DNA from: Flavobacteriaceae bacterium | GTDB taxonomy: Bacteria; Bacteroidota; Bacteroidia; Flavobacteriales; Flavobacteriaceae | Assembly (NCBI GenBank): GCA_002700465.1 | Contig: PADT01000058.1 | Coordinates: 4,492-37,453, forward strand | DNA: 32,962 bases | Direction: 5' to 3' | Shown here: piece after piece, positions 28,822-32,962 of the stretch | How the letters are laid out: each line of letters starts with the position of its first letter | Position numbering within the stretch: position 1 is the stretch's first letter | The notes under the pieces: model-generated | The model's input: the letters and a program-made list of their open reading frames with translations, nothing else | Database searches by the model: none | What the model was told of the DNA's origin: nothing | Position numbers and translations under genes: made by a program

Positions 28822-29391
28822 ATGTTTAGGATTGGAAAAACTTTAGTTTCTGAAGAAATAATTGAAAATAATTTTCATTGTAATATTTCAAAGTGTAAAG
28901 GAGCCTGCTGTGTTGAAGGAACAGCTGGCGCACCATTAGAAAAAAACGAAGCTCAATTGTTAAATGAAAATTTTGATAAAATCTCAAAATATTTATCATC
29001 AAGAGCAAAAAAAACTATTATTTCTAATGGTAAGTACGTAACTCTAAGTGACGGAAAATTAGAAACTCCTTTAATAGATTCAAAGGCATGTGCTTATGTA
29101 CATTATGAAGACAACGGCTCATTGGCTTGTGGTATTGAAAAAGCATATCTTAACAAAGAAATAAGTTTTAATAAGCCAATTTCATGTCATTTATATCCCG
29201 TTAGAGTTAAAGAATATTCTGAATTTACAGCTGTAAATTATCACAATTGGTTTATTTGCTCTGACGCTTGTAGTTTAGGAAATGAATTAAAAAAGCCAGT
29301 TTACGAATTTGTAAAAGAAGCATTGATAAAAAAATTTGGAAATGAGTGGTTTTTAGAGCTTGAAAAAATAGCCAAAAATCAAATTAAATAG
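28822..29391 (+). CDS. DUF3109-family cysteine-rich protein
   Basis: A 189-residue soluble protein with nine cysteines. Four (C20, C25, C29, C30) are in HCNISKCKGACCVEG; others are at C90, C103, C122, C146 and C150. The N-terminal block and SCHLYPVR match the DUF3109 family, which resembles YkgJ-type putative Fe-S or Zn proteins. Metal binding is inferred from the cysteine pattern. It has no signal peptide. It is divergent from marC and precedes the long nrd leader region; no terminator is evident after it. Confidence 0.9.
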   Translation: MFRIGKTLVSEEIIENNFHCNISKCKGACCVEGTAGAPLEKNEAQLLNENFDKISKYLSSRAKKTIISNGKYVTLSDGKLETPLIDSKACAYVHYEDNGSLACGIEKAYLNKEISFNKPISCHLYPVRVKEYSEFTAVNYHNWFICSDACSLGNELKKPVYEFVKEALIKKFGNEWFLELEKIAKNQIK

Positions 29392-29514
29392 TGTACTGTA
29401 TTAGAATACAACAACTAATTTATTATAACTAATTAATAATCAAACAATTGCACTTAAAGGTTTTAAAAAATAAAAAAACAGAGCATTTTCAAATTGTTAA
29501 GAACTAAGCTGGTT

Positions 29515-29523
29515 TGTGAATAA
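29515..29523 (-). promoter_or_regulatory. DnaA-box-like site TTATTCACA
   Basis: Exact match to TTATNCACA on the - strand, 21 bases downstream (start to start) of one TTGTTAAGAACT copy. A nine-base match can arise by chance, so binding is only suggested. E. coli nrdAB is known to be regulated by DnaA through such boxes. Confidence 0.4.
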
Positions 29524-29820
29524 GTACTGCTTTTATTTTTGGAAACATTTTAGAATCTTTGTCTTAATCAACAAGCGGAAATTTTTATTATTTTTTAAAT
29601 TATAATTAATTAACATGTCTCTTGTTGAATTGTTCTCACAAAAAAAACAGTAATATTCAATTTAATTATTGAAAACTTATTCTGTGTTTTGACGTGATTT
29701 AACGAAAGTTAAAACAGTAGAAGTAGTAGTTGAATAATTATTAAATAAGACTTTAAATAATTAAAGTTAGAGGCAGATAACTCTCTTTTTTATTTAGTAA
29801 ATATTTAAAAAAAATTAACA

Positions 29821-29850
29821 AAAATTTTGTTGAAAATTTTGTTAAGAACT
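29821..29850. repeat. Tandem AAAATTTTGTT repeats with 12-base period near nrdB
   Basis: AAAATTTTGTT occurs at 29821-29831 and 29833-29843. The second runs into GTTAAGAACT, completing the second TTGTTAAGAACT copy (29839-29850). It is followed by TTGTAAAG, continuing an 11-12-base rhythm of TTGT motifs, close to one helical turn, which would put a bound protein on one face of the DNA. It lies 78-107 bases before the nrdB ATG. Confidence 0.6.
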
Positions 29851-29927
29851 TGTAAAGTCACTGTTTTAAAATGATGAAATAAATTAGATATTTTTATATA
29901 TCACAAGAATTATAAATTTTGAACCAA

Positions 29928-31202
29928 ATGAAGATAGATCAAATAATTAAGAGAGATTTCAACACAAAAGCTTTTCATTTAGAAAAAGTTACAGAGGCAA
30001 TTCACAAAGCAATGGTTGCTGTTGAAGTTGGTACTTATGAGAATGCACAAGACATTGCATTGTCAGTTTACAAAACATTATTAGATCGTAAAAACGAGCA
30101 TAAAGAATACATACCAACAATTGAAGAGGTTCAGGATATTGTTGAAACTCATCTTATGGAAAGCAAGTTTCCAGAAGTAGCAAAAGCATACATTTTATAT
30201 CGTAATAAAAGAAGTCAAAAAAGAGAATCTGATATTTTCGAAAAACGAATCAACTTAAAACCTTACGAATATCCACATCTTTATGAATATGTACCAGCCA
30301 TAAGACACTCTTATTGGATTCATTCAGAATTTAATTTTACAAGTGACATTCAAGATTTTAAGTCTCGTTTAACTGAGTCAGAAAGAAGTGCAATTAAAAA
30401 TACAATGTTGGCAATTTCTCAAATTGAAGTCGCTGTTAAATCTTTTTGGGGAGATCTTTATCATAGAATTCCAAAACCTGAGATTGGTTCAGTCGGATCA
30501 ACGTTTGCAGAAAGTGAAGTTCGTCATGCGGATGCCTATTCTCACTTACTAGAAATACTAGGATTGAACTCTGAGTTCAAAGAGCTTAAAAAGAAACCAA
30601 GTATTATGAAAAGGGTACGCTATTTAGAAACAGCACTTAAAAATTCAAAAAGTGATGATGATAAAGAATATGCTGAATCTATTCTTTTATTTTCATTATT
30701 TATTGAACATGTTTCTTTGTTTTCGCAATTTTTAATCATCATGGCTTTTAATAAACATAAAAACATGTTGAAAGGTATTTCCAATGTTGTTGAGGCAACC
30801 TCAAAAGAAGAACAGATTCACGGTGATTTTGGTATTGATTTAATTAAAATCCTTCAGAAAGAACACCCAGAATGGTTCACCCCAGAATATCATGAAGATA
30901 TTCAAAACCTGTGCAAAGAAGCATTTGAAGCAGAGCAAGATGTTGTGGATTGGATTTTTGAAGATGGAGAGCTTGACTTTTTACCAAAAGATGTGATTAA
31001 TGAGTTTTTAAAAAATAGATTTAATAATTCTTTAGAAAGTATTGGAATTGATAAAGTATTTGAGGTCGATCAAAATTTAGTTTCACAAACTGAATGGTTC
31101 GATGATGAGATTATTGGGACTAAACATGGTGATTTTTTTGTAAAAAGATCTATCAACTATAGTAAGAGAAGCCAAAGTATAACGAATGACGACTTATTTT
31201 AG
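29928..31202 (+). CDS. nrdB: Ribonucleotide reductase beta subunit NrdB with N-terminal ATP-cone, class Id-like
   Basis: A 424-residue radical-generating subunit. Residues about 5-95 are an ATP-cone (KRDFNTKAFHLEKVTEAI, ending FPEVAKAYILYRNKR), a domain normally on NrdA; the ferritin-like core follows (about 120-400). Metal-site residues: E167, E197 and H200 in ESEVRHADAY, then E260, E295 and H298 in EEQIHG. Y204 is at the usual radical-tyrosine position, and K171 lies four residues after E167. The E..K..E..H..Y spacing matches what I recall for the dimanganese class Id enzyme of Flavobacterium johnsoniae; ATP-cone NrdB is described from Leeuwenhoekiella blandensis. A TTG at 29919 would add three residues; ATG is preferred. 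nrdA starts three bases after the stop. Confidence 0.94.
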   Translation: MKIDQIIKRDFNTKAFHLEKVTEAIHKAMVAVEVGTYENAQDIALSVYKTLLDRKNEHKEYIPTIEEVQDIVETHLMESKFPEVAKAYILYRNKRSQKRESDIFEKRINLKPYEYPHLYEYVPAIRHSYWIHSEFNFTSDIQDFKSRLTESERSAIKNTMLAISQIEVAVKSFWGDLYHRIPKPEIGSVGSTFAESEVRHADAYSHLLEILGLNSEFKELKKKPSIMKRVRYLETALKNSKSDDDKEYAESILLFSLFIEHVSLFSQFLIIMAFNKHKNMLKGISNVVEATSKEEQIHGDFGIDLIKILQKEHPEWFTPEYHEDIQNLCKEAFEAEQDVVDWIFEDGELDFLPKDVINEFLKNRFNNSLESIGIDKVFEVDQNLVSQTEWFDDEIIGTKHGDFFVKRSINYSKRSQSITNDDLF

Positions 31203-31205
31203 AAA

Positions 31206-32962
31206 ATGCAAACAAACATAACAGCCGAAGAAAAACAAACAAAATCATCACAAGATTCAACTCAAGCTAGAGAAAACTCAAATAAAAGAATGGGTTTGAG
31301 TTCCGAAAAACCGTTTGAGTGGCTAAATGAAAATAGTAGAAAATTTTTAGCTGCTGGTTATCTAGGAGAGGGATTGTGTGCAGAAGAACGTATTGCTGAT
31401 ATTGCTAAAAGAGCTGAAGAAATACTTCAAATGCCCGGCTATGCAAACAAATTTTATCATTACATGTCAGAAGGATATTATTCGTTGGCATCTCCTGTTT
31501 GGTCAAACTTTGGAAAAGAGCGTGGTTTACCAATCAGCTGTTTTGGCTCTCATGTAGATGATGACATAGGTAACATCTTATACTCCCAATCTGAAGTGGG
31601 CATGATGTCAAAATTAGGTGGAGGAACTTCGGGTTATTTTGGTAAAATTAGACCACGTGGAGCTGCTATAAAAAATAATGGTGAAGCCTCAGGAGCGGTT
31701 CATATTATGAGATTGTTTGAATCTATGGTAGACGTTGTAAGTCAAGGTTCGGTAAGACGAGGACGTTTTTCTCCTTATTTACCAATTGATCATGCTGATA
31801 TTATGGAATTCCTAGAAATAGGCTCAGAAGGTAATCCTATCCAAGAGTTAACTCATGGAGTCACTGTAACTAATGACTGGATGCAAGAGATGATTGATGG
31901 CGATGTTGACAAAAGAACAGTATGGGCTAAAGTTTTACAAAGTCGTGGAGAAATGGGTTACCCTTACATCTTCTTTACAGATAATGCAAATAACGGCGCT
32001 GCTGACGTATACAAAGATAAAGAGTTGCCAATCTATGCAAGTAATTTGTGTACGGAAATAATGTTGCCTTCTAATCATAATTGGTCTTTTGTTTGTGTTT
32101 TGTCAAGCATTAACTTATTACATTATGATAAGTGGAAGGATACAGATGCCGTTCAAACGATGGTTTATTTTTTAGATGCGGTAATCACTGAGTTTTTAGA
32201 AAAATTAGAGTCCTATAAGAACTCACCAGATAGAGAAGATCAACAGACATTTCTATTTATGGAGAGAGCATATAATTTTGCAAAAGAAAATAGAGCATTA
32301 GGAATGGGAACTTTAGGATGGCACTCTTTACTGCAATCTAAAATGCTGCCATTTGATAGTCAAGAGGCCTACGATTTAAACAGTGAAGTTTTTAGAACTT
32401 TAAAAGAACTTTCTTATAAAGCGTCTGAACATTTGGCACAAAAATTTGGAGAACCAGAACTGCTAAAAGGATATGGTAGAAGAAATGCGACTTTGAATGC
32501 TATAGCACCAACTACATCGTCTGCTTTTATACTGGGGCAAGTATCTCAAGGCATAGAACCAATATGGTCTAATATTTATGTCAAAGACATTGCGAAAATA
32601 AAAACAACTGTTAAAAATCCTTTTTTGATAAAGCTTTTACAAGAAAAAGGAATGGACACACCAGACGTTTGGAGAGATATAAGAGACAGAGACGGTTCTG
32701 TTCAACATCTTGATTTCTTGTCTGATATAGAAAAAGATACATTCAAAACTTACTCAGAAATTGACCAGTTAGTGATTATTTATCAAGCAGCCAATAGGCA
32801 AAATCACCTGGACCAAGGTCAGTCGCTTAATATCATTATACATCCTGACACACCTACCAAGGAGATTAATAAGATTCATATTACTGCATGGAAACTGGGC
32901 TTAAAATCTCTTTATTACCAGCACAGTATGAACGCAGCACAAAAATTCAAGCAAAAGAAAGA
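31206..32962 (+). CDS. nrdA: Ribonucleotide reductase alpha subunit NrdA, 5' 585 codons (3' end outside window)
   Basis: Reduces ribonucleoside diphosphates to deoxyribonucleotides. The frame is open to the window edge. The N-terminus (about 1-30) is a polar tail and is followed directly by the catalytic domain (EKPFEWLNENSRKF), so there is no ATP-cone. Visible catalytic features: C112 in ISCFGS and C297 in FVCVLSS (redox pair), N280-L-C282-T-E284 (radical cysteine site), APTTSSAFILG and the radical-transfer tyrosines Y570-Y571 in SLYYQHS. The C-terminal cysteine pair that accepts electrons lies beyond the window. Allosteric activity control would have to come from the ATP-cone on NrdB. Confidence 0.95.
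   Translation, partial: MQTNITAEEKQTKSSQDSTQARENSNKRMGLSSEKPFEWLNENSRKFLAAGYLGEGLCAEERIADIAKRAEEILQMPGYANKFYHYMSEGYYSLASPVWSNFGKERGLPISCFGSHVDDDIGNILYSQSEVGMMSKLGGGTSGYFGKIRPRGAAIKNNGEASGAVHIMRLFESMVDVVSQGSVRRGRFSPYLPIDHADIMEFLEIGSEGNPIQELTHGVTVTNDWMQEMIDGDVDKRTVWAKVLQSRGEMGYPYIFFTDNANNGAADVYKDKELPIYASNLCTEIMLPSNHNWSFVCVLSSINLLHYDKWKDTDAVQTMVYFLDAVITEFLEKLESYKNSPDREDQQTFLFMERAYNFAKENRALGMGTLGWHSLLQSKMLPFDSQEAYDLNSEVFRTLKELSYKASEHLAQKFGEPELLKGYGRRNATLNAIAPTTSSAFILGQVSQGIEPIWSNIYVKDIAKIKTTVKNPFLIKLLQEKGMDTPDVWRDIRDRDGSVQHLDFLSDIEKDTFKTYSEIDQLVIIYQAANRQNHLDQGQSLNIIIHPDTPTKEINKIHITAWKLGLKSLYYQHSMNAAQKFKQKK

Follow-up and report, generated by a model that had tools for sequence, protein, structure and literature searches.

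How does an operon for one class of ribonucleotide reductase (RNR) come to stand where close relatives carry an RNR of another class? This question is raised by a stretch of 32,962 nucleotides (nt) from a Flavobacteriaceae bacterium (assembly GCA_002700465.1, contig PADT01000058.1, positions 4,492 to 37,453 of the forward strand), referred to below as the window, whose right-hand end carries the genes nrdB and nrdA of a class Id RNR. A preliminary description, made from the letters alone, had concentrated on the architecture of the two proteins; the chromosomal context, which goes beyond that view, is the more surprising part. The operon appears to be one allele of a single RNR locus. We consider it likely, with a probability of roughly 0.8, that a manganese-type class Id RNR displaced an iron-type class Ia RNR in place and was then moved between species by homologous recombination.

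Two classes of RNR at one chromosomal position

Our genus set comprises 22 genomes including the window's own (genomes are numbered with G, loci with L). Profile searches with PF00268, PF02867 and PF13597 assigned class Id to 14 of them and class Ia to six; in two no RNR was found, and none had both. G002 was typed by nrdA alone, and G020 has an extra class Id NrdB that lacks the ATP-cone. These genomes are mostly incomplete (51-93%): the window's genome is 67% complete, the two without a detected RNR 62% and 67%, and only G010 and G016, both class Ia, reach 90%.

The two operon types share their neighbours, which are a dCMP deaminase-like gene, a MarC gene and a DUF3109 gene upstream and the genes c8 (about 788 amino acids, aa) and c10 downstream. 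In the window the DUF3109 gene (28822..29391, forward strand; PF11307 and synteny) is the left neighbour of the RNR slot. Both flanks were found in all six class Ia loci, with no DUF3109 open reading frame (ORF) called in G006. For class Id both flanks were present in seven of the 14 loci; contig ends leave the left one only in four, including the window, and the right one only in two, and in G002 the operon is inverted. Class Ia loci encode an NrdB of 325 aa and an NrdA of 814-817 aa, with an ATP-cone on the one NrdA tested (G010), and class Id loci of the genus mostly encode proteins of 424 and 592 aa. The class Ia NrdB of G010 has as its top PDB match the R2/M2 chain 1h0n (491 bits), presumably the mouse protein, and the class Ia enzyme at the slot is probably of the iron type.

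DUF3109 also adjoins class Ia in the loci of G023, G030, G031, G037 and G038, four of which sit in other families of the order. Since this neighbourhood recurs in other families, class Ia was taken as the older occupant. The simplest account is that class Ia is the older allele and class Id the invading one.

At the same neighbourhood, the class Id operon runs opposite to the flanks in L014, L016, L023, L025-L027, L029 and L035 as well as in G002 (L115), which suggests separate insertions into the slot. In several more distant loci (L049, L052-L055, L057, L058, L063 and L081) a DUF3109 homologue follows nrdA in reversed orientation.

Borders, remnant and putative promoter block

Comparison of class Ia with class Id loci places the borders of the exchanged segment close to the ends of the class Ia operon. 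Five pairs have a left side: in four of them the homology reaches 39-50 nt into the class Ia nrdB, and in G007/G015 it ends 23 nt short. Of the eight pairs compared on the right, seven resume their homology 0-23 nt past the stop of the class Ia nrdA, and G016/G015 does so 90 nt past it. An alignment of the upstream regions of 11 class Id and six class Ia genomes revealed a remnant of about the first 13 codons of the class Ia nrdB, located by position at 29615..29653 (forward strand) in the window. This scar is decaying in the class Id loci and has lost its ATG in several of them; in five of the 11 genomes (G015, G012, G001, G004 and G005) it scores beyond all 300 dinucleotide shuffles.

Upstream of the remnant lies a block of 78 nt (29494..29571, forward strand), which its conservation marks as the putative retained promoter of class Ia. 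Mean identity within the block is 88% across the 11 class Id genomes and falls to 63% and 60% in the two flanking stretches of 78 nt; the class Id block is 85% identical to that of the six class Ia loci. The block contains TTATTCACA at 29515..29523 on the reverse strand, a site that we take to be DnaA-box-like; the form TGTGRATAA stands at the same place in all six class Ia loci and in all 11 class Id loci with full upstream sequence. The block with this site is conserved although the gene once behind it is gone. The motif TTATNCACA has two matches in the window, no more than expected by chance.

Between the remnant and nrdB lies a leader (29654..29927, forward strand) without counterpart in the class Ia loci, which would have come with the class Id operon. 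Motif comparison detected TTGTTAARAACT once in the 78-nt block (29494-29505, forward strand) and a second time in this leader (29839..29850, forward strand). Each of the six class Ia loci has one copy, and each of the 11 class Id loci with full upstream sequence has two. The second copy lies about 90 nt before the class Id nrdB, or 61 nt in G005, where the ORF was called from an earlier start; within the window by itself the count of TTGTTAARAACT is unremarkable. The class Id operon may therefore be read from the old promoter as well as from its own.

According to the favoured explanation, the ancestor would have carried a eukaryote-like class Ia operon at the slot, with the cone on NrdA and an Asp/Tyr metal site (by eye). 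The incoming class Id operon would have brought its own leader and taken the place of the class Ia genes, from around nrdB codon 13 to shortly after the end of nrdA, with the old promoter left standing. The class Id cassette may since have moved across species via homologous recombination in the shared flanks, and as a result of this movement sister species would now differ in RNR class. Here we infer both the direction of the replacement and the involvement of homologous recombination.

The search for the start of the class Ia nrdB was extended to other genera, namely to L013-L082 except L040, whose upstream sequence is too short (69 of 70 loci). L074 scored 34 compared to 27 for its 60 shuffles, but its operon lies outside the slot; L077 equalled its maximum and the rest scored below. 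Similarity to the promoter block was found in many slot-located loci (L013, L024, L028, L034, L036-L039 and others), and the TTGTTAARAACT motif occurs within 700 nt in 32 of the 69 loci, in some of them twice. Pelagic relatives may have this block in common as an RNR promoter.

Exchange between species

On a tree of rpoB, gyrB and parE (22 genomes, 20 of them labelled) the RNR type changes four times, and the well-supported branches force three changes. As few changes were needed in 60-62 of 500 label shuffles, so that RNR type is not clearly clustered by ancestry. With rpoB alone (17 labelled genomes) three changes were counted, with the upstream flank genes (17 rows) three and with the downstream ones (14 rows) five. 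The sister species G004 and G009, joined with a support of 100/99 on the three-gene tree, carry class Id and class Ia, respectively. Each allele is monophyletic within the genus: class Ia with 100/100 (six rows) and class Id with 100 in the Shimodaira-Hasegawa-like approximate likelihood ratio test only (12 rows, without G002 and G020).

Four-fold degenerate sites reveal that the class Id operon has been transferred recently. In G001 and G004 they are 82% identical in nrdBA compared to 44% in core genes (p=7e-32), and for the window and G003 the values are 86% and 67% (p=4e-9). G020 shares 75-76% of these sites in nrdBA with G005 and G021 compared to 43-46% in the core; on the three-gene tree it groups with the class Ia genomes G008 and G010 (84/76, 90/80), and on rpoB with G008 at 100/99. 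Taking as an excess a nrdBA identity more than 15 points above the core at four-fold sites with p<1e-6, we found an excess in 11 of 106 pairs of like type and the reverse in none; among the class Ia pairs there was none in 15. In several pairs, for example G004/G012 and the window with G004, nrd identity is at the level of the core, and therefore the large excesses are not accounted for by codon bias alone. Moreover, G004 carries a G001-like tract that covers the final 150 nt of the DUF3109 gene and continues up to the stop codon of nrdA.

In the pair G004/G009 (L113/L105), identity is 79-90% upstream of the operon and 94-99% once the first third of c8 is reached; the c8 and c10 genes of this pair carry an exchange tract of their own. 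The tree of c8 and c10, with its five type changes, conflicts with the core tree, for example by placing G013 with G006 and G007. No recent transfer was seen at the four-fold sites of these genes, and the grouping was dropped.

Competing explanations

Several observations weigh against displacement followed by recombination. Class Ia adjoins DUF3109 in just five of the eight other class Ia loci, the exceptions being G022, G033 and G035. In G002 the class Id nrdA is inverted relative to the flanks and nrdB is cut at the contig end; this genome likely represents a separate acquisition. On its own the scar cannot be detected in G013, G021, G003 and the window, and it gives a weak signal in G017 and G011. 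Seven of the 11 excess pairs involve G020, and class Id pairs generally lie above the core (median +5 points, 72 of 91 positive; class Ia +0.5, 8 of 15), so that a part of the excess may reflect constraint or older exchange. In addition, a second RNR may have been missed in any single class Id genome because of its incompleteness, and the one cone-less NrdB contig of G020 is probably contamination.

Differential loss is a further way to obtain the present pattern: both operons would have coexisted in the ancestor at or near the locus, and each lineage would have lost one of them, with no later exchange between species. In its favour, by reading of the matches, 21 of 249 genomes of the family (all at least 85% complete except the window's own) have at least two NrdB, including one of class Ia kind, with the second typed as class Id only in G022. 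The monophyly of each allele within the genus is also what this history predicts. We nevertheless regard it as improbable, as none of the 22 genus genomes holds both operons, the class Ia loci have a single TTGTTAARAACT copy and no class Id leader, and synonymous sites show that class Id operons crossed species borders long after the split, with the borders of the G004 tract at the operon. An error of assembly or binning that joined contigs of different species at the nrd operon is still harder to defend. Most genomes appear to be metagenome assemblies, and seven of the 14 class Id contigs break in or at nrdBA where 2.2-3.9 would be expected (P 0.002 to 0.05 depending on the way of counting, a value on which we do not rely). 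Against this, class Ia lies on contigs of 396, 125 and 121 kilobases (kb) and also on one of 131 kb, where only about 1 kb separates the operon from the contig end. Class Id lies on contigs of 858 and 101 kb, and matching borders together with the promoter block recur across several loci of both types. The broken contigs are those of G000, G002, G003, G011, G014, G020 and G021; the breaks might be caused by an operon common to strains with differing flanks.

The preliminary description had implied a plain class Id RNR, inherited vertically, at an unremarkable place. This view fits the metal site, which is common to all 82 NrdB sequences compared (the window, 80 genome loci and G012, picked by BLAST with none dropped, the 80 being the best and thus the nearest of 495 relatives), and many other loci of this best-80 set have class Id in the same neighbourhood. 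We give it hardly any credence in view of the trees, the scar, the promoter and the synonymous sites; it is contradicted by the pairs G004/G009 and G001/G004. Displacement in place with subsequent recombination accordingly remains our preferred explanation, and related bacteria appear to have been exchanging an essential enzyme for one of another class at the same locus. Somewhat doubtful, in our estimation, is the wider idea of a two-allele system at the sole RNR locus of this pelagic genus, in which an iron enzyme with its switch on α and a manganese enzyme with its switch on β would be swapped by recombination via the shared promoter block and flanks and kept circulating by shifting selection through metals, oxidants or phage. 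Where sister species carry different RNR classes at a single locus, they form near-matched natural pairs for comparing the fitness effect of the metal and of the placement of the switch.

The enzyme encoded in the window

The gene nrdB (29928..31202, forward strand) starts with the ATG at 29928 and encodes a class Id radical-generating subunit of 424 aa with an N-terminal ATP-cone, identified by its ORF, its match to 5olk and Pfam. Pfam places the ATP-cone (PF03477, 70.9 bits compared to a cut-off of 25.8) at residues 5-96 (29940..30215, forward strand), in line with the residues 5-95 named in the preliminary description, and the Ribonuc_red_sm domain at residues 107-381. Following at 31206..32962 on the forward strand, nrdA encodes the class Id catalytic subunit according to TIGR02510 (747 bits compared to a cut-off of 602), PDB matches (6dqx and 6dqw on top) and Pfam. 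As stated beforehand, Pfam found no ATP-cone on NrdA within 31206-32962, and its matches comprise the all-alpha and barrel domains only. Since the last base of the window is also the end of the contig, NrdA is missing its C-terminal tail; in the relatives G015 and G002 the C-terminus reads KKECESCEG.

The window's NrdB aligns without gaps to the NrdB of Leeuwenhoekiella blandensis in its dATP-bound form (5olk; residues 2-424 of the query, 698 bits). With the L. blandensis numbering of PMC6754362 and PMC5794259, E170, K174, W177, E200, H203, Y207, E263, T294, E298 and H301 correspond to E167, K171, W174, E197, H200, Y204, E260, T291, E295 and H298 in the window (30426..30821, forward strand). 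These ten positions comprise the ligands, Lys, Trp, Tyr and the Thr partner of the Tyr, and they are invariant in all 82 sequences. Accordingly, the first ligand is Glu instead of Asp (E167), a replacement described as a mark of class Id (PMC6754362), Lys follows four residues after it (K171) with Trp three residues further on (W174), and the Tyr is kept together with its Thr partner (Y204, T291). The alignment with F. johnsoniae NrdB (6cwo) is likewise ungapped over residues 101-424 with an offset of 80. Glu 167, Lys 171, Glu 197, His 200 and Tyr 204 were thus named correctly beforehand, and Lys and Tyr occupy matching positions in both reference proteins.

Among the residues compared with L. 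blandensis, which are those of the dATP-dependent cone interface and L. blandensis R102, D70, M77, K86, I89, R92 and R99 are kept. Two conservative changes were observed: D76 is replaced by E73 in the window (Glu in 82 of 82 sequences) and I93 by L90 (Leu in 71 and Ile in 11 of 82). It is well supported by these comparisons that the operon encodes a class Id (NrdAi/NrdBi) RNR of the L. blandensis type and that the β subunit carries the allosteric switch, as the preliminary description had proposed. By analogy with L. blandensis, NrdB would bind two deoxyadenosine triphosphates (dATP) in its ATP-cone, with dATP leading to an inactive β4 tetramer and ATP to the active dimer. From its residues the cofactor is predicted to be a Mn2 centre without tyrosyl radical, in which superoxide would oxidise Mn2(II,II) to the oxidant. 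Both the metal and the allostery of the window's enzyme are in this way extrapolated from relatives. Class Id systems are described as not encoding NrdI near by (PMC8463856); a Pfam scan of the three upstream neighbours found no NrdI, with no search directed at NrdI made and the contig ending in nrdA.

RNRs found per genome

In the window's genome and the other 13 class Id genomes of the genus no other RNR was found except the cone-less class Id NrdB of G020, which lies on a contig of 3,088 bases (L118) beside an ABC ATPase-like gene (by eye). Profile searches detected class III in none of the 22 genus genomes, and class II gave no match. If completeness is taken as the chance of detection, the probability that a second RNR was missed in all 14 class Id genomes is about 1e-9, and in all six class Ia genomes about 1e-5.

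In the family set, NrdB was present in 239 of the 249 genomes searched. Follow-up covered 49 genomes with a best NrdB of a kind other than class Ia, leaving out G273 and the window's genome. A class Id NrdB of cone length was found in 39 of these, 16 of which also have class II and 23 of which do not; among the latter, class III occurs in two, and one more contains a class III fragment that scores below threshold and has stops. The enzyme with the cone on NrdB is therefore the only RNR found in 21 of the 249 genomes. Each of these 21 was checked and shows the cone (92 of 92 columns) together with the ten metal-site residues. Completeness is 94% or more in 16 of them, of which one has 8% contamination; G099, G180, G190 and G192 each consist of a single contig. 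PMC5794259 stated in 2018 that all species with a cone-bearing NrdB also encode other RNRs, which is not borne out in the present collection. The β-cone enzyme appears able to serve as the sole RNR, in which case the dATP switch would be the only control of the cone type over deoxynucleoside triphosphate synthesis in the cell.

Relation to known systems

The closest described system is NrdAi/NrdBi of L. blandensis (5olk, 6sf4, 6sf5; PMC5794259, PMC6754362, PMC8350387), with which the window shares the metal-site residues, the position of the cone and the cone-less NrdA. The window differs in the changes of D76 to Glu and I93 to Leu at the cone interface, in the class Ia slot and in having class Id as the only RNR found in a 67% complete genome. 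L. blandensis NrdB, which was crystallised with Mn, is both a β-cone protein and class Id (PMC5794259, PMC6754362). The combination of cone and class Id is therefore not new, contrary to what the preliminary description had suggested, and the 80 nearest loci share the tested metal-site and cone residues; it is the chromosomal setting that looks new. In the open-access literature we found no description of an in-place exchange of RNR class, with subscription papers mostly outside the search.

The class Id RNR of F. johnsoniae (6cwo; PMC8463856, PMC6754362) has the Glu/Lys/Tyr site at matching positions but no ATP-cone, unlike the window's NrdB. Facklamia ignava possesses a Grx-ATP-cone-NrdB (PMC6187632, PMC6754362), likewise a β-cone protein of class Id, whose glutaredoxin domain is absent in the window; this protein gave a Mn2(IV,III) cofactor that correlated with activity (PMC6754362). 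For marine Bacteroidetes a class I RNR has been proposed to be of eukaryotic origin (PMC3019208). It resembles the class Ia allele of the genus locus, a likeness based on the PDB match and the placement of the cone. From the window's enzyme it differs in class, in carrying the cone on the other subunit and in its Asp/Tyr pairing (PMC8463856; here by eye).

The idea that the enzyme is useful in iron-poor sea water is unsupported. Viral populations of class Ia and class Id have nearly identical distributions, and both rise with predicted iron (PMC12918982); for this reason we do not favour a simple low-iron explanation. Phages were also considered as a near donor of the operon and rejected, since those sampled are too distant: all 941 matches in phage records are below 60% identity, and identity amounts to 77-99% in the best 80 loci from bacteria. 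Among relatives on viral contigs, the best 80 of 146 have 50-72% identity, and in 73 of these the match begins at residue 16 or before and thus takes in the cone.

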